A stretch of 64,000 nucleotides of DNA. It comes from Niameybacter massiliensis (lineage in GTDB: Bacteria > Bacillota > Clostridia > Lachnospirales > Cellulosilyticaceae). The position numbers were made by a program, and so were the translations under genes. This document shows positions 18,413-38,604 of the stretch, in pieces (position 1 is the first letter of the stretch; the number at the start of each line of letters is the position of its first letter). The notes beneath the pieces were generated by a model. The model did not search any database. It was given only the letters and a program-made list of their open reading frames with translations, and was not told where the DNA came from. The stretch spans positions 3,042,411-3,106,410 of the forward strand of contig NZ_LN875035.1 in the NCBI RefSeq assembly GCF_001282685.1. Reading direction: 5' to 3'.

Positions 18413-18578
18413 TTCACTATAAAATTTTATTTCTTATTACAACTTATGTAGTTACACATCATCTACTATTAAAATTGTCTTCCCCAGACCAATATAAATT
18501 ATGATAAAAGGTTCAATTTTATCATCTCCCCTATATCTCAAGTACAACATAAATAAACTACATAGGTTTTTATAATAG

Positions 18579-18620
18579 AATAAGAGTAGCCTAATTTTTA
18601 TTAGGCTACTCTTATTTTTA
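18579..18620 (+). terminator. Strong intrinsic terminator after the repeat array
   Basis: 16-bp perfect arms (18579-18594 and 18601-18616) with a 6-nt loop, followed by TTTTTA. No gene on either strand ends here, so it probably ends a non-coding transcript. Confidence 0.8.
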
Positions 18621-18694
18621 TCTGAAAATATTTCTATTTCTATGAACTCGGATATCATTCGAAAAGTTTTAGGTACTTAAAAATATTATATTTA

Positions 18695-32243: not shown

Positions 32244-34139
32244 CTAATTACTTATTCTATTTTCTTTACGAATTTTCTTAAGCGCTTTTTTTGAACCTCT
32301 TGCAAGATCATGCTCTAGCTTTCTTTCTTTGAAACTTGTAAAAAGGCTGTCTAGATCATAATCTGCAGGATATAAATCTCTTGCACGGAGTTTTAATTTC
32401 ACTCTTCTCTCATCTGCTTCTACTAATTCACCTTTATAAAATATAATTAGAGATTCTAATTGAGTCTTTGGCTTATAAACGATTGCTTCTTCACCATACT
32501 CTAACAATATAACTTTATCGCCCTTTTCTAATATTTCTCTTTGTACTTCTTGTTCTTTGGTATTCTCTATCTGTAGTCTTTTTCTCTTAGGCTCAACTGT
32601 CTCGTAGTTATAGCATTTTTCTTCCATATAACGTGCTGCATTCTTTAGAATATCTGCTCCAATGCCCATCTTCTTTGCGATCCATAATGCATTACTTTCT
32701 CCTGCTTGACCTATGAGAAGTTTATAAAGAGGTTCTAAAGTTTCTCTATTAAATTGCATCGCTGCATTTTCAAAGTCAGGATGTCCTGCTGAGAAATCTT
32801 TGATTTCATTGTAGTGGGTTGTTGCAACCGTAATAGCACCTTTTTGATAGAGTGCTTCTAATATAGCAATAGCTAGCGCTGCACCCTCCCCAGGCTCTGT
32901 CCCACTTCCTATTTCATCAAACAGAAGTAGAGTAGATTTATTTGTGTTATTTACGATTGAGGCTAGGTTTTTGACATGAGATGAAAAAGTACTTAAAGCA
33001 TTCTCAAGGCTTTGACCATCACCAATATCTACATATACTTTATCAAACACAGACATCTTTGTGCCTTCACCTACTGGTATATGAAAACCTGATTGCATAG
33101 CAAGTGTTAATAAGCCTACTGTCTTTAAAACAATTGTTTTCCCACCTGCATTTGGACCTGTTATGATTAAGCTACGATAATCTGTCCCTATCTTAAAGTC
33201 TAGTGGTACCACTTTACCTTTTAGAAGAGGGTGACGGCCTTGCTTAATCTCAACCATGCCATAATCATTAATTTGCGGGCTTCTTCCATCTAAACTTTTG
33301 CTATATTTTGCTTTAGCAAAAATCATATCATATTGTCCCATAACTTCCATATTACGTTTGATACTGTCACACTTTTCATATACAAGACCTGTTAGGTAAG
33401 ATAATACTTTATACTCTTCCATAGATTCTTCTACTTGTAGATTCAGTAACTCCGCTGTATATTTATTTACACTATTGATTTCCATGAATGCTGTTTTATC
33501 TGTACTTTCAACCACAGTTCCTTCAACTTTGTTCTTATAAGCAAGTTTAATAGGTACAGTTAATTTTCCTTGCCTTTTACTAATAAAGAACTCTTGAATA
33601 TAAGATTTATTATGAGGATTTTTTAAGAACTGGTTCAATCTTTCTTCTATTTTATCTTCTGCTATTGCCATATGTCTTCGAATCTTCTTTAACGTATTAC
33701 TGGCTTCATCGCAAACTTTATTGTTACGTACTGCATATTCTATTTCTTCTTCAATAGCCGGAAAAGGTTGAATACATAGGCTATAGCCTTGTAGCATGGG
33801 TGCTTCGATGCTCCTATCCTTCATATAAGTTTGGATCTTCTGACATCCTCTTAAAAAGGCTGCAATTTGCGTAATTTGTTCCTCGTTTAGGATGATATCC
33901 TTTTCTACCTTCTCTATAAGCTCAGCAATATTTGAAATCCCTTGTAATGGTACACTCCCTGTACAATCAAGTAGGCGTCTTGCCTCAGTTGTCTCCTCTA
34001 GTCTATTTAATACTACTTTTTTATTGCCACTTGGCATTAAATCTCTTATAAGCTTTTTCCCTAAACTACTTACGCAGTAAGATTCTACGATTTCTTTCAT
34101 CTCGTTATATTGTAATTTTTCAAATACTTCATTATTCAT
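32244..34139 (-). CDS. MutS2-like ATPase lacking the Smr domain
   Basis: 631 residues. MutS core and lever helices (about 1-300) are followed by a MutS ATPase with Walker A GPNAGGKT, Walker B LLLFDEIGSGTEPGEG and a conserved TTHY. A long helical stretch and a KOW-like barrel (about 535-600) come next. The chain ends with a basic tail (KKALKKIRKENR). Classical MutS2 is about 780 residues and ends in an Smr endonuclease domain, which is missing here without any sign of a frameshift. It probably acts on branched DNA or collided ribosomes like MutS2, but without its own nuclease. Confidence 0.88.
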   Translation of the reverse strand: MNNEVFEKLQYNEMKEIVESYCVSSLGKKLIRDLMPSGNKKVVLNRLEETTEARRLLDCTGSVPLQGISNIAELIEKVEKDIILNEEQITQIAAFLRGCQKIQTYMKDRSIEAPMLQGYSLCIQPFPAIEEEIEYAVRNNKVCDEASNTLKKIRRHMAIAEDKIEERLNQFLKNPHNKSYIQEFFISKRQGKLTVPIKLAYKNKVEGTVVESTDKTAFMEINSVNKYTAELLNLQVEESMEEYKVLSYLTGLVYEKCDSIKRNMEVMGQYDMIFAKAKYSKSLDGRSPQINDYGMVEIKQGRHPLLKGKVVPLDFKIGTDYRSLIITGPNAGGKTIVLKTVGLLTLAMQSGFHIPVGEGTKMSVFDKVYVDIGDGQSLENALSTFSSHVKNLASIVNNTNKSTLLLFDEIGSGTEPGEGAALAIAILEALYQKGAITVATTHYNEIKDFSAGHPDFENAAMQFNRETLEPLYKLLIGQAGESNALWIAKKMGIGADILKNAARYMEEKCYNYETVEPKRKRLQIENTKEQEVQREILEKGDKVILLEYGEEAIVYKPKTQLESLIIFYKGELVEADERRVKLKLRARDLYPADYDLDSLFTSFKERKLEHDLARGSKKALKKIRKENRISN

Positions 34140-34348: not shown

Positions 34349-34644
34349 ATAAAAAAAGCAGCGTACAAAAATACGCTGCCTTCACTTATACCATTTCTAT
34401 TATACATTATAAATAGCCTCATTCTACCATGCTTAAAGCATCTTCAATAAGTAGGCATAACTATAATGTTGACCGAATAGACATGTTTAGTTGTGCGTTT
34501 TGTATCTTCATAGATTTGCAAACAAAGGTATCACAAACAAAGGGTATAATTACCCCTAGTTTTAATAACTTTTGTTTACCATATTTAATTAATCTATTTT
34601 AGATACCTCCACACTCACAAACATGTCTCCTTTACTATTATGAT
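34349..34644 (-). ncRNA. Orphan structured non-coding RNA (about 295 nt)
   Basis: It has its own consensus promoter and a strong terminator but no credible ORF. On the minus strand the transcript folds into a long rod. The steps are GACAUGUUU (34627-34619)/AAACAUGUC (34488-34480), GUGUG/CGCAC, GUAUC/GAUAC, AUAGAUU/AAUCUAU, GGUA...UACC with AACAAA/UUUGUU, and an AGGGGUA/UACCCU apical hairpin. A second hairpin (CUAC...AUGCUU/AAGCAU...GUAG) and the terminator follow. The rod with internal loops recalls 6S RNA, but the long 3' part does not. I cannot assign it to a known class. Confidence 0.6.
34350..34380 (-). terminator. Terminator of the orphan RNA
   Basis: GCAGCGTA (34358-34365) pairs with TACGCTGC (34372-34379), followed on the minus strand by seven T. 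It may also end the chemoreceptor transcript from upstream. Confidence 0.9.
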
Positions 34645-34650
34645 GATAAC

Positions 34651-34679
34651 ATTATATGCAATAATGCTGTTGCTGTCAA
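34651..34679 (-). promoter_or_regulatory. Consensus sigma-A promoter of the orphan RNA
   Basis: Perfect TTGACA (34674-34679), 17-bp spacer, perfect TATAAT (34651-34656). It begins 13 bp after the stop codon of the chemoreceptor gene. It is the best promoter match I found in the window. Confidence 0.85.
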
Positions 34680-34691
34680 AGTAAATTTATT

Positions 34692-36395
34692 CTATATCTT
34701 AAATTCATCTATCTTATTTATAATGCCATCAATCAATCCATTTAACTTTTCAGCACTATCTGATACTTCTTTAGATGCACCATTAATATTTTGTGAGAAA
34801 TGATGTATTTCATTCACTAGTGCTTCAACCTCTTTAGAAATATCAAAAAGATACTTAATTTTTCCACTAACCTCTTCCTTTTCTTCTCTTAATTCAAAGG
34901 CTTGCTTTAACGTACTTTTCATTTTAGGAATGATAGTTTCTATGCGTTCTATAATTTCTTCGAAAACACCCACTGTTTCTTCTGAAATATTCATCTGTTT
35001 CTTAACATCATCATCTAGGTTACTAAACTGATTCACAACTTCTAATGTTTCCCTAGATACCTCTTTAATTTTATTAATAATTTCATCCGATAATTGCTTT
35101 GTTCTTAATGACAAAGTTTTAATTTCTTCTGCTACAATAGCAAAGCCTCTTCCTGACTCTCCTGCTCTTGCAGCTTCAATCGATGCATTGAGTGCTAGTA
35201 GGTTCGTCTGATTTGCTATATCTGTAATCAGTCCTGATATCTCAGATATTTGAATAATATGCTTTTCTAAAGTTGTAATCTTCATATTAACATGTTCTAA
35301 GGTATCCCCTACCTTCTGAGCTGCTACCCCTAAATCCTGAATGGCTTTTGAACTATCTTGGGATTTTAAAGTAATGGCATATGTATTATCTTGTATTGCT
35401 TGTAAATTCAAGTGCATCTCATCCATATTTTGCCCAAACCCATCCATAAACTCTACAATGTGACCTAGCTCATTATTTTGTTTAAGCATTTTGTCATTAA
35501 TTTCTTCAATAGATTGAGTGGTTGAGGCAGTTGCTAAATGTACTTCATCAGATGTAGTATTTAAATCTTTTGCATTCTGATCGATAACTTGAGACATTCC
35601 CTTTATATCACTAACTAATGAATGAAGTTTTCTTACCATCTCACCAAAGTTATTAGCTAATTGTCCAAACTCATCTTTCTTACTATCTTCTATATTTAAA
35701 GTTAAATCACCTTTTGAAACGATATTCGTATGCTCTACTATCGAACGTAGTCTTCTAGCAATACGTTCAATAACTAGATAGGCGCTTAACATTGAAACTA
35801 AAATCAGAGTAATTCCCAAAACAATCATTCTGTTCTTTATCACATTTACTCTATCAAAAACTTCTTCGGCGCCGTAATCACATGCTAAAATACCTACAGA
35901 CTCTCCCATTGAATTTTTAATAGGTACCACTGCGCTCAACATTTCTCCATATTCCCGATCTAAAGCTATCTCCGTGTAGCCACTTTTGCCTTCCTCCATT
36001 GCTTCTTTAAATAGCTCTGGATTTTCTGTCGACTCTTCCGCTTCTCCAAATATATTGGCTTCTTCATCCAAGAAAACATATCCATAGTTTTCTTCATCTA
36101 ATTTCATCATTGCATATATATAGGTGGCACCTGTATCTTCTCTAACATCTTTTAATAGTTCATGCATTTGTAATATGTATGCTTCATCTTCTCCTTCACT
36201 TTCAATAAGTTCCTCAAATTTATCTCCATCAATCTGATAGATTAATGTTTGTACTATTGCTAACGCCTGCTCCCCTACTAACTTCTCCGTTATATTATTA
36301 AGTGATGTAATAGAAAAATAGCTTAACAAACCACTTAATAGTACACATAACCCACATACAAAAATAATAGCCTTTCCTTTTATAGATAGATGCAT
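34692..36395 (-). CDS. Methyl-accepting chemotaxis protein (single-Cache-like sensor)
   Basis: 567 residues. Membrane helix about 8-30, extracytoplasmic sensor of about 150 residues, second helix about 186-207, HAMP about 208-265, then a cytoplasmic signalling coil with the hairpin tip [20 protein letters not shown]. The sensor is rich in acidic residues. It passes ligand signals to the CheA/CheW kinase. The ligand is unknown. GGGAG upstream sets the start. No terminator directly follows; the orphan RNA promoter lies there instead. Confidence 0.95.
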
Positions 36396-36576
36396 TCTGT
36401 TTCTCCCGCCTGATAGTATTTTTCGAGCTTAATTTTATTTTTTATACTATAGTTTAGTATTTTGACACACAATTTTATCATTGCTCTCTCCTCCTGTCAA
36501 TCATACTTTGCTACCTTATAAAATCATTTGATTCTCTCCTTATACTCTCTTCATCATCTAACTAAATCGATTGTTA

Positions 36577-38604
36577 CTATCTAAAAAACTTTAACTTTTC
36601 TTCTAAGTTACTCATCACATCTCTCAGTACTTGTGAAGATTGATAAATACTTTCTCCTATTTCATTAAACTCTTCTGTTGAAGCCGCTATCTCTTCTGAT
36701 GTTGCCGCTATATCTTGAGAGATATCTTGAGATATTTCTATTTCACCTATTACTGTTCCTTTATATACATTCATATATTCAAAAGCATTCGACATATTAT
36801 CTAAATTACTTACCATTTGGCTAACCTCTTGTAAAATCTTTATAAATGATTCTTCACTTTTTTGAATGATAGTATTTTGCTCTATAATCCCTTCTTTTAA
36901 CTCTATTGCTTCTGATACAATAATTTCACTTTCATTTCCAACTCTATTTAAAATACCTTTAATTTCTGATGCTGATTTTTTACTTTCCTCTGCTAGAATT
37001 CTAATTTCATTAGCTACTACGGCAAATCCTCGTCCTGATTCGCCTACACGTGCTGCCTCTATTGCTGCATTAAGTGCTAATAAATTAGTCTGCTCTGAAA
37101 TTCCATCGATAACTTTTGTTATAGAGTCAACTTCTTTTAAACTTGTACTCATATGGTTAATATTTGCTTCAAATACCTTAAATGTATCCATTACACGTTC
37201 TGCTTTTTCAAGTAATATAATAAGCTCTTTCTGAGTGAAATCAGCTTTATCATTAATAATTTCTGCTGATTGTTCAGATTCTTTGACCCTTACTCCAAGA
37301 TCAATAATCTTCTCTTCAAATAGCGTCATTTGAGTAGATATAGTCACCATGTTATCTGTTTGTTGCTGACACCCTTCTGCTGTTCCATTAATAGCTATAG
37401 CTATATTTTTTGCATTCTCTGACATAATTTCTGCTGTATCACCTAATTGATTACCCTCTTGCTGCAATAATATAGTTGTATTTTTTGTGTCATCAATAAT
37501 ATTCTTTATTGCTTGCTGAGTTGCAAAAAGTGCTTTCCATACTTCGGCAATTTCATCTTTTCCCTTAATCATACTTTCTTTTGGTACTTGTGAAAGATTA
37601 CCGCTAGACATATTTGTTATATAATCTTGTAATATTGATAATCTTGTTATAGCCCTTTTCAAAATAATATACAGACTCATCCCCAAAATAATGACCATTC
37701 CTAGTAAACTATATTTAACATAGCCTGAAATTTTTTTCGTCATGCTAAGTATTGCATCTTCTTCTACTCTTAATCCTAGTGACCATTCAGATTTACTATT
37801 AATAGGTTCATATACTAAATAACTTCTTCTCCCCTCATCATTTCTATACTGCTCAATCCCCTCTTCTCCATTGATCATTACTTGATGAATTTTTGATAGT
37901 TCAACATCACTTCCTATTGTCTTTGCATTTTCAATACAGTTCATAAGTTGTTTAGCAAACTCTATATCTTTATAAGCAATAATTGCCCCATTCTCATCTA
38001 GTATATATGCCTCTCCTACCTCACCATAATCTAATTTATCCAGTAATATTGATAATGCAGCAGCATCATATGTATAAGTGTATACCCCTATTATTTCTTG
38101 TCTATCATACATATTATGAACTGGTACTGAAATGCTGTAGCTAAAATCCCCCGTCTGCCTATCTACTACTGGCGAACTATAATACACCTCTCCTCTAATA
38201 GCATGTTGAAATTGCTTAGACTCTGATAAATCTATATACCCCATATTATTGGTTGCCATCGTTTTGCCTTGTATATCTGCAAAACTTACAACTGATCCTG
38301 CATATTCTGGGTTAACAAAAAGCTCTAATGTCTTTAATCTTTCCTGATCTGTTAAATTTGGATCTTCTATACTTGTGTTATATATATCCTCTATAACATC
38401 GTGAATTTGCATATCTATCATCTGAGAGACCGCTTCATTAATCATCTTTGTTACATTTTGTGCATTCCGCAAAGAATCTTGAATAACTACTTCTGATAAC
38501 TGCTTATTTAAACTCATTACAATAGTTGTCGTTAGTACCATTAAAATTAAGGTAGGTACAACAATAAGCTTAAACTTTAATCCTGTATTTATATTAAATT
38601 TCAT
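36577..38604 (-). CDS. Methyl-accepting chemotaxis protein (dCache sensor)
   Basis: 675 residues. First helix about 11-30, double-Cache extracytoplasmic domain about 35-285 (with [20 protein letters not shown]), second helix about 297-316, HAMP, and signalling domain with [20 protein letters not shown]. The dCache type usually senses amino acids or small organic acids. It is divergent from the neighbouring two-component genes, whose kinase also has a Cache-type sensor. AAGGTGA upstream is the probable ribosome site. Confidence 0.95.

Follow-up and report, generated by a model that had tools for sequence, protein, structure and literature searches.

The element described here is very probably the 5′ leader of a mutS2-like gene, acting as a ribosome-mediated (leader-peptide) transcription attenuator. 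It lies on the minus strand of the window, the 64,000-nucleotide stretch of Niameybacter massiliensis DNA that was analysed. The in silico support consists of a conserved ORF, 1:2 and 2:3 strand pairing, a terminator, a pause-like site, linkage to the gene and the domain make-up of its product. The features are as follows, in the direction of transcription.

34674 to 34679, minus strand: -35 element TTGACA, which together with the -10 element matches the consensus at 12/12 positions with a 17-nt spacer
34651 to 34656, minus strand: -10 element TATAAT of the same 12/12 promoter
34627 to 34633, minus strand: Shine-Dalgarno AAAGGAG of the leader ORF, read from the sequence
34628-34619 with 34489-34480, minus strand: rod-closing stem over the translation start, in which AGACATGTTT (34628-34619) pairs with AAACATGTCT (34480 to 34489) in the MFE fold
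34589 to 34618, minus strand: leader ORF with a GTG start and 9 codons (MSVEVSKID*), strand 1 of the switch, conserved in relatives
34541 to 34555, minus strand: hairpin GGGGTAATTATACCC at the rod tip, a candidate pause hairpin, in the MFE fold
34534 to 34540, minus strand: TTTGTTT, a candidate NusG-type TTNTTT pause motif by analogy to the vmlR leader (PMC9226507)
34492 to 34517, minus strand: strand 2, which pairs with the leader ORF as anti-antiterminator or, once free, with the terminator 5′ arm, from duplex energy and the masking fold
34354 to 34383, minus strand: intrinsic terminator, a hairpin of strands 3 and 4 with a T run after it, from a terminator scan
32244 to 34139, minus strand: regulated mutS2-like gene, encoding a 631-aa MutS2 paralogue that lacks the SMR domain but has a predicted KOW-like barrel, from TIGR01069, a structure model, Foldseek and a tree

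In the mechanism we propose, the strong promoter would keep the leader in constant production. By default the leader ORF, which we infer is translated in vivo, would be read and released, strands 1 and 2 would pair, and the terminator (3:4) would form, giving a short RNA of ~290 nt. The inducing signal would be a ribosome stalled on the leader ORF, for example by a drug at the peptidyl-transferase centre or exit tunnel, which would free strand 2. This strand could then capture the terminator 5′ arm (2:3), so that transcription would continue into the mutS2-like gene. The rod hairpin and TTNTTT motif probably pause RNA polymerase until a ribosome loads. The product, an SMR-less MutS2 paralogue, is most likely an ATPase induced under stress to split or rescue ribosomes, in addition to canonical MutS2.

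The 2-kb region holds ten promoter-like sites, of which this promoter (34679-34651) alone exceeds 9/12. Homologous leaders are likewise preceded by -35 elements of the TTGAC(A/G) type and -10 elements of the TATAAT type. The RNA expected from it, from ~34645 to 34350 (~290-295 nt), folds at -88.4 kcal/mol compared with -57.7 +/- 4.5 for dinucleotide shuffles (z -6.84), and none of 200 shuffles was equally stable. An earlier sequence-only reading of the segment had described the perfect TTGACA/TATAAT promoter with 17-bp spacing, the nested rod helices with their closing stem and the T-run terminator, all of which were borne out (12/12 on the minus strand; stem in the MFE fold; terminator at 34383-34354). 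In Rfam, the check suggested with that reading, no family matched the leader RNA at gathering or relaxed thresholds, 6S RNA included; the best scores were weak, terminator-like and far under cut-off (L20_leader 19.3 bits, GcvB 18.1 bits).

6S RNA (RF00013) shares the long rod outline and the strong promoter, but here there is a coding leader and a terminator switch. The sequence-only reading had likened the rod to 6S RNA and found the 3′ hairpin unlike it. The leader is indeed not 6S RNA, as its covariance model gave no match at the leader, and the 3′ hairpin is the terminator of the attenuator. The genome's weak 6S-like match lies elsewhere (L001, G000:C11:2448954-2449148; sub-threshold at 36.5 bits, cut-off 46.4, E 1.5e-5) and is probably the true 6S RNA of the source genome. 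A repetitive element or MITE was ruled out, as the segment is single-copy; no second copy was found in its own genome, only matches of 17-29 nt. Elsewhere in the window, a plus-strand match to L20_leader (18534-18623) is weak (27.3 bits, cut-off 58.7) and probably mere terminator similarity. Upstream of the leader, on the same strand, are two consecutive chemoreceptor (methyl-accepting) genes (34692-38604).

The leader ORF of the window (GTG AGT GTG GAG GTA TCT AAA ATA GAT TAA) is atypical in its GTG start, nine codons and displaced first stop. In ~60 relatives from Clostridia and Bacilli the leader is mostly exactly 7 codons long, M-x-x-V-V/F-L/F-N-stop, with a Shine-Dalgarno (GAAGAGGTG or AAGGAG) in the same place. 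Examples include MSVVVSK*, MSAVVSK*, MSWVVSQ*, MLGVVLN*, MSVSVLN* and MIEVVLN*, and the general forms are MxxVVLN* and MxxVFFN*. The claim that the segment held no credible ORF therefore fails, and a conserved short ORF had been named beforehand as refuting an orphan RNA. Of 41 SMR-less genes, 22 have the strict 7-codon leader with Shine-Dalgarno, compared with none of the 34 canonical mutS2 genes (Fisher 5e-8), as judged by a regular expression composed after inspection of the leaders themselves; being post hoc, it carries less weight than the independent leader tests. Genomes of the order outside the discovery set contain MSAGVLN*, MAKVFFN* (three), MTQVFFN*, MTMVFFN* and MARVFFN*. The Val-rich hydrophobic leader peptide is, we presume, reminiscent of macrolide-stalled Erm leaders.

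The Ser2 codons are of both the AGY and TCN types, Val4 uses all four codons, and amino-acid identity at codons 2 and 4 is 0.42, compared with 0.12 from independent nucleotide columns. This variety of codons and excess of identity argue, at the level of sequence, that selection acts on the leader peptide itself as well as on the RNA; at codons 6-7 peptide constraint is inseparable from pairing constraint. AATTN[AC]ATA follows the leader stop in 20 of 61 leaders (0.7 expected from shuffles), lying ~30 nt past the stop in many loci, e.g. L083, L086 and L151. This conserved element, the large structured leader, the terminator and the conserved rod would suit a ligand-binding riboswitch for the mutS2-like gene to which the short ORF is incidental. 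Such a riboswitch is extremely unlikely, as loops and stems diverge strongly between groups and leave no invariant binding pocket, and conservation falls on the ORF, Shine-Dalgarno, stop and pairing.

Homologues of the 5′ rod, with 70-75% identity, were found by DNA search within the family in four genomes of one genus. Each has its own promoter and terminator and is followed directly by a mutS2-like gene. By protein search, most genomes of the family have a MutS2-like gene of ~630 aa beside canonical MutS2, and the short gene is preceded by a Shine-Dalgarno, a very small ORF and either one terminator or two, even at 37-41% protein identity. Carriers include Sporanaerobium hydrogeniformans, Clostridium drakei, Paenibacillus, Peribacillus, Ureibacillus, Psychrobacillus and Enterococcus dispar. 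A DNA pattern of the Bacillus/Paenibacillus leader (GTTCTTAACTAA, 65-95 nt, TTAAGAACA) was also searched alone against 398 genomes of the phylum. It matched in five genomes (reversed-pattern control 0), each time followed directly by an SMR-less mutS2 that has a 7-aa leader, MLGVVLN*, MSVSVLN* or MSVNVLN*. The segment had been said to belong to neither neighbouring gene, but wherever homologues were found, the mutS2-like gene came directly after them.

This linkage bears on whether the segment is instead an independent structured non-coding RNA, of the 6S type or a new class, near the mutS2-like gene by coincidence. The perfect promoter, the fold z of -6.8 and a terminator giving an abundant ~290-nt RNA would all agree with that. 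It is nevertheless highly unlikely: the element is found only directly upstream of SMR-less mutS2, including every match of the blind pattern search, it has a conserved ORF with a Shine-Dalgarno, and it does not match 6S RNA, for which the genome has a separate candidate locus. The suggestion of a new structured RNA class survives in part, in that the RNA is conserved, strongly transcribed-looking and unknown to Rfam, but it is the leader of the mutS2-like gene and not an orphan gene.

The SMR-less copy is present in 57 of 196 genomes of the order, and the canonical gene is near universal. This patchy accessory distribution suggests transfer, as is expected of a protection gene without being proof of one, and the finding of relatives carried by a Paenibacillus plasmid (H3) and by a large Cytobacillus replicon (H2) weakly hints at mobility. 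Among 69 neighbouring proteins there was no enrichment of resistance genes, with one ABC-F protein, upstream in L076. In genera g3, g4, g5 and g8 of the same family the SMR-less gene has no recognisable leader. In g3 (L045-L048) the leader-less gene is directly downstream of an apparent rpsU (ribosomal protein S21), a further link to translation.

Strand 2 sits ~60-130 nt downstream of strand 1. Their duplex in the window is at -20.3 kcal/mol (z -3.4); across leaders the 1:2 helix has a median z of -2.6, with z < -2 in 22 of 37, and cognate strands pair at -17.3 kcal/mol compared with -13.2 for swapped ones. The sequence-only reading had looked to relatives for conserved pairing, and it is found in compensatory changes of the 1:2 helix (GTATCT/AGATAC, GTTCTTAAC/GTTAAGAAC, TTCTAAACTAA/TTTGGTTTGGAA). 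The two strands covary between lineages, with GTATCT..ATAGAT/ATCTAT..AGATAC in the group of the window, GTTCTTAACTAA/TTAGTTAAGAAC in Bacilli and Paenibacillus, and the last of the three pairs above in Fusibacter.

Pairing of strands 2 and 3 was assessed with the ribosome footprint held unpaired and the transcript ended before the terminator 3′ arm. With the ORF covered, the expected number of 2:3 pairs increased from 2.0 to 6.7, compared with 1.3 to 3.7 for swapped terminators (cognate against swapped, Wilcoxon p 2e-5; gain, p 3e-6), p-values that are optimistic because species count as samples although they are not independent. Masking raised 2:3 pairing by >0.1 in 28 of 43 leaders and lowered it in none; with the parameters used it is absent in a few homologues, e.g. 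L038. In the window it goes from 0 bp in the free leader to ~8-10 bp with a footprint start between -12 and 0, and drops to 1.3 pairs with a start at +3. A mutually exclusive 2:3 antiterminator is seen at family level, and moderately in individual members. In the equilibrium fold of the full-length leader the terminator usually wins, so such folding is uninformative and antitermination must be kinetic.

Between strands 1 and 2, a hairpin followed by TTNTTY is present in 27 of 50 leaders, compared with 3.6 in shuffles. Terminator-like sites number 3 against 0.7 expected, and an intrinsic terminator is present between the leader ORF and the mutS2-like gene. In many Bacilli and Paenibacillus (L073, L074, L076, L082, L087 and others) a second terminator with a conserved TGTTC loop lies just 5′ of the mutS2-like gene and is perhaps a second attenuation step.

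The main rival to a ribosome-stalling sensor is amino-acid starvation sensing, in which ribosomes short of charged tRNA would wait at Val, Leu or Asn codons, as in the trp, ilv and leu leaders. The leaders are Val-rich, with Val-Val or Val-Val-Val frequent, and the 1:2, 3:4 and 2:3 topology is that of trp-type attenuators. However, the regulated gene is a MutS2 paralogue and not a biosynthetic or transport gene, Val is not universal (examples are VFFN, with a single Val, MLSVSA and MSVLGSK) and synonymous codon changes are seen, which makes an amino-acid attenuator unlikely.

The 631-aa protein encoded by the regulated gene scores 564.7 bits against TIGR01069 (cut-off 400), aligning only to profile positions 1-544 of 790. 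No C-terminal SMR domain was found in it, with Pfam giving only MutS_V. Structure modelling from 23 relatives (mean pLDDT 85) predicts the core/lever, clamp and ATPase, two helices in place of SMR, and a five-stranded KOW-like barrel at residues 542-584, the expected KOW position. By Foldseek the nearest solved structures are of MutS2, among them that of the B. subtilis protein on a collided disome (7qv3). The source genome also encodes full-length MutS2 (945 bits, 832-aa ORF). In a tree of 83 sequences a well-supported branch separates the SMR-less proteins from canonical MutS2, with one exception from a short contig (L126), probably a truncation, and the SMR-less lineages are intermixed across Clostridia and Bacilli. 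The paralogue shares with canonical MutS2 (TIGR01069; B. subtilis 7qv3, 8qpp) the core/lever, clamp and ATPase, probably also the KOW-like barrel, has its closest PDB fold there, and differs in having no SMR domain, a separate clade, a patchy distribution and leader control. SMR-less MutS2 is apparently an undescribed paralogue family.

In B. subtilis (PMC10897456), MutS2 uses its ATPase to split collided ribosomes. Cells that lack it become sensitive to chloramphenicol, erythromycin and tetracycline, and survival in erythromycin scarcely depends on its SMR domain. Because of this splitting activity and the precedent of HflXr, we infer that the element is a ribosome-stalling sensor inducing SMR-less MutS2.

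Systems in which a leader peptide attenuates a gene for ribosome protection or splitting are already known. In the rli80-hflXr attenuator of Listeria monocytogenes (PMC6310831) the leader ORF likewise lies within the anti-antiterminator, an antiterminator competes with a terminator, the target is a duplicated paralogue of a ribosome-splitting factor, and a short terminated RNA is made constantly. However, its target is the HflX GTPase rather than a MutS2 ATPase, and its leader is a 14-aa peptide with an RLR macrolide motif, unrelated in sequence to the 7-aa MxxVVLN-type peptide. The vmlR leader of B. subtilis (PMC9226507) also has a uORF, anti-antiterminator, antiterminator and intrinsic terminator, and a NusG-dependent pause hairpin with TTNTTT, for which the pause site here is a candidate from sequence. 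Unlike the present leader, in which the peptide itself is conserved, its 3-codon uORF (MIN) relies on arrest at initiation, and vmlR encodes an ABC-F protein (PMC9226507). The leader class and target family are absent from Rfam and from the open literature searched, which is not proof of absence.

A broader reading, to which we give an even chance, is that SMR-less MutS2 paralogues are undescribed, horizontally spread, antibiotic-inducible ribosome-splitting protection factors of Firmicutes, the MutS2 counterpart of HflXr, induced via a new stalling peptide (M-x-x-V-V/F-L/F-N-stop). If so, many Clostridia and Bacilli, including Paenibacillus, Bacillus relatives, Clostridium drakei, Enterococcus dispar and Lachnospiraceae, would make a second, SMR-less MutS2 only on ribosome stalling. 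The recently discovered splitting of ribosomes by MutS2 would be tied to an inducible stress or antibiotic response, and a short peptide of testable stalling specificity would be on offer. Genes annotated as 'endonuclease MutS2' or 'mismatch repair protein MutS' would become overlooked candidates for intrinsic drug tolerance. One genome (G016) has two SMR-less mutS2 paralogues, L034 and L057, with separate leaders of different class (MSVVVSK* and MSECVLN*).
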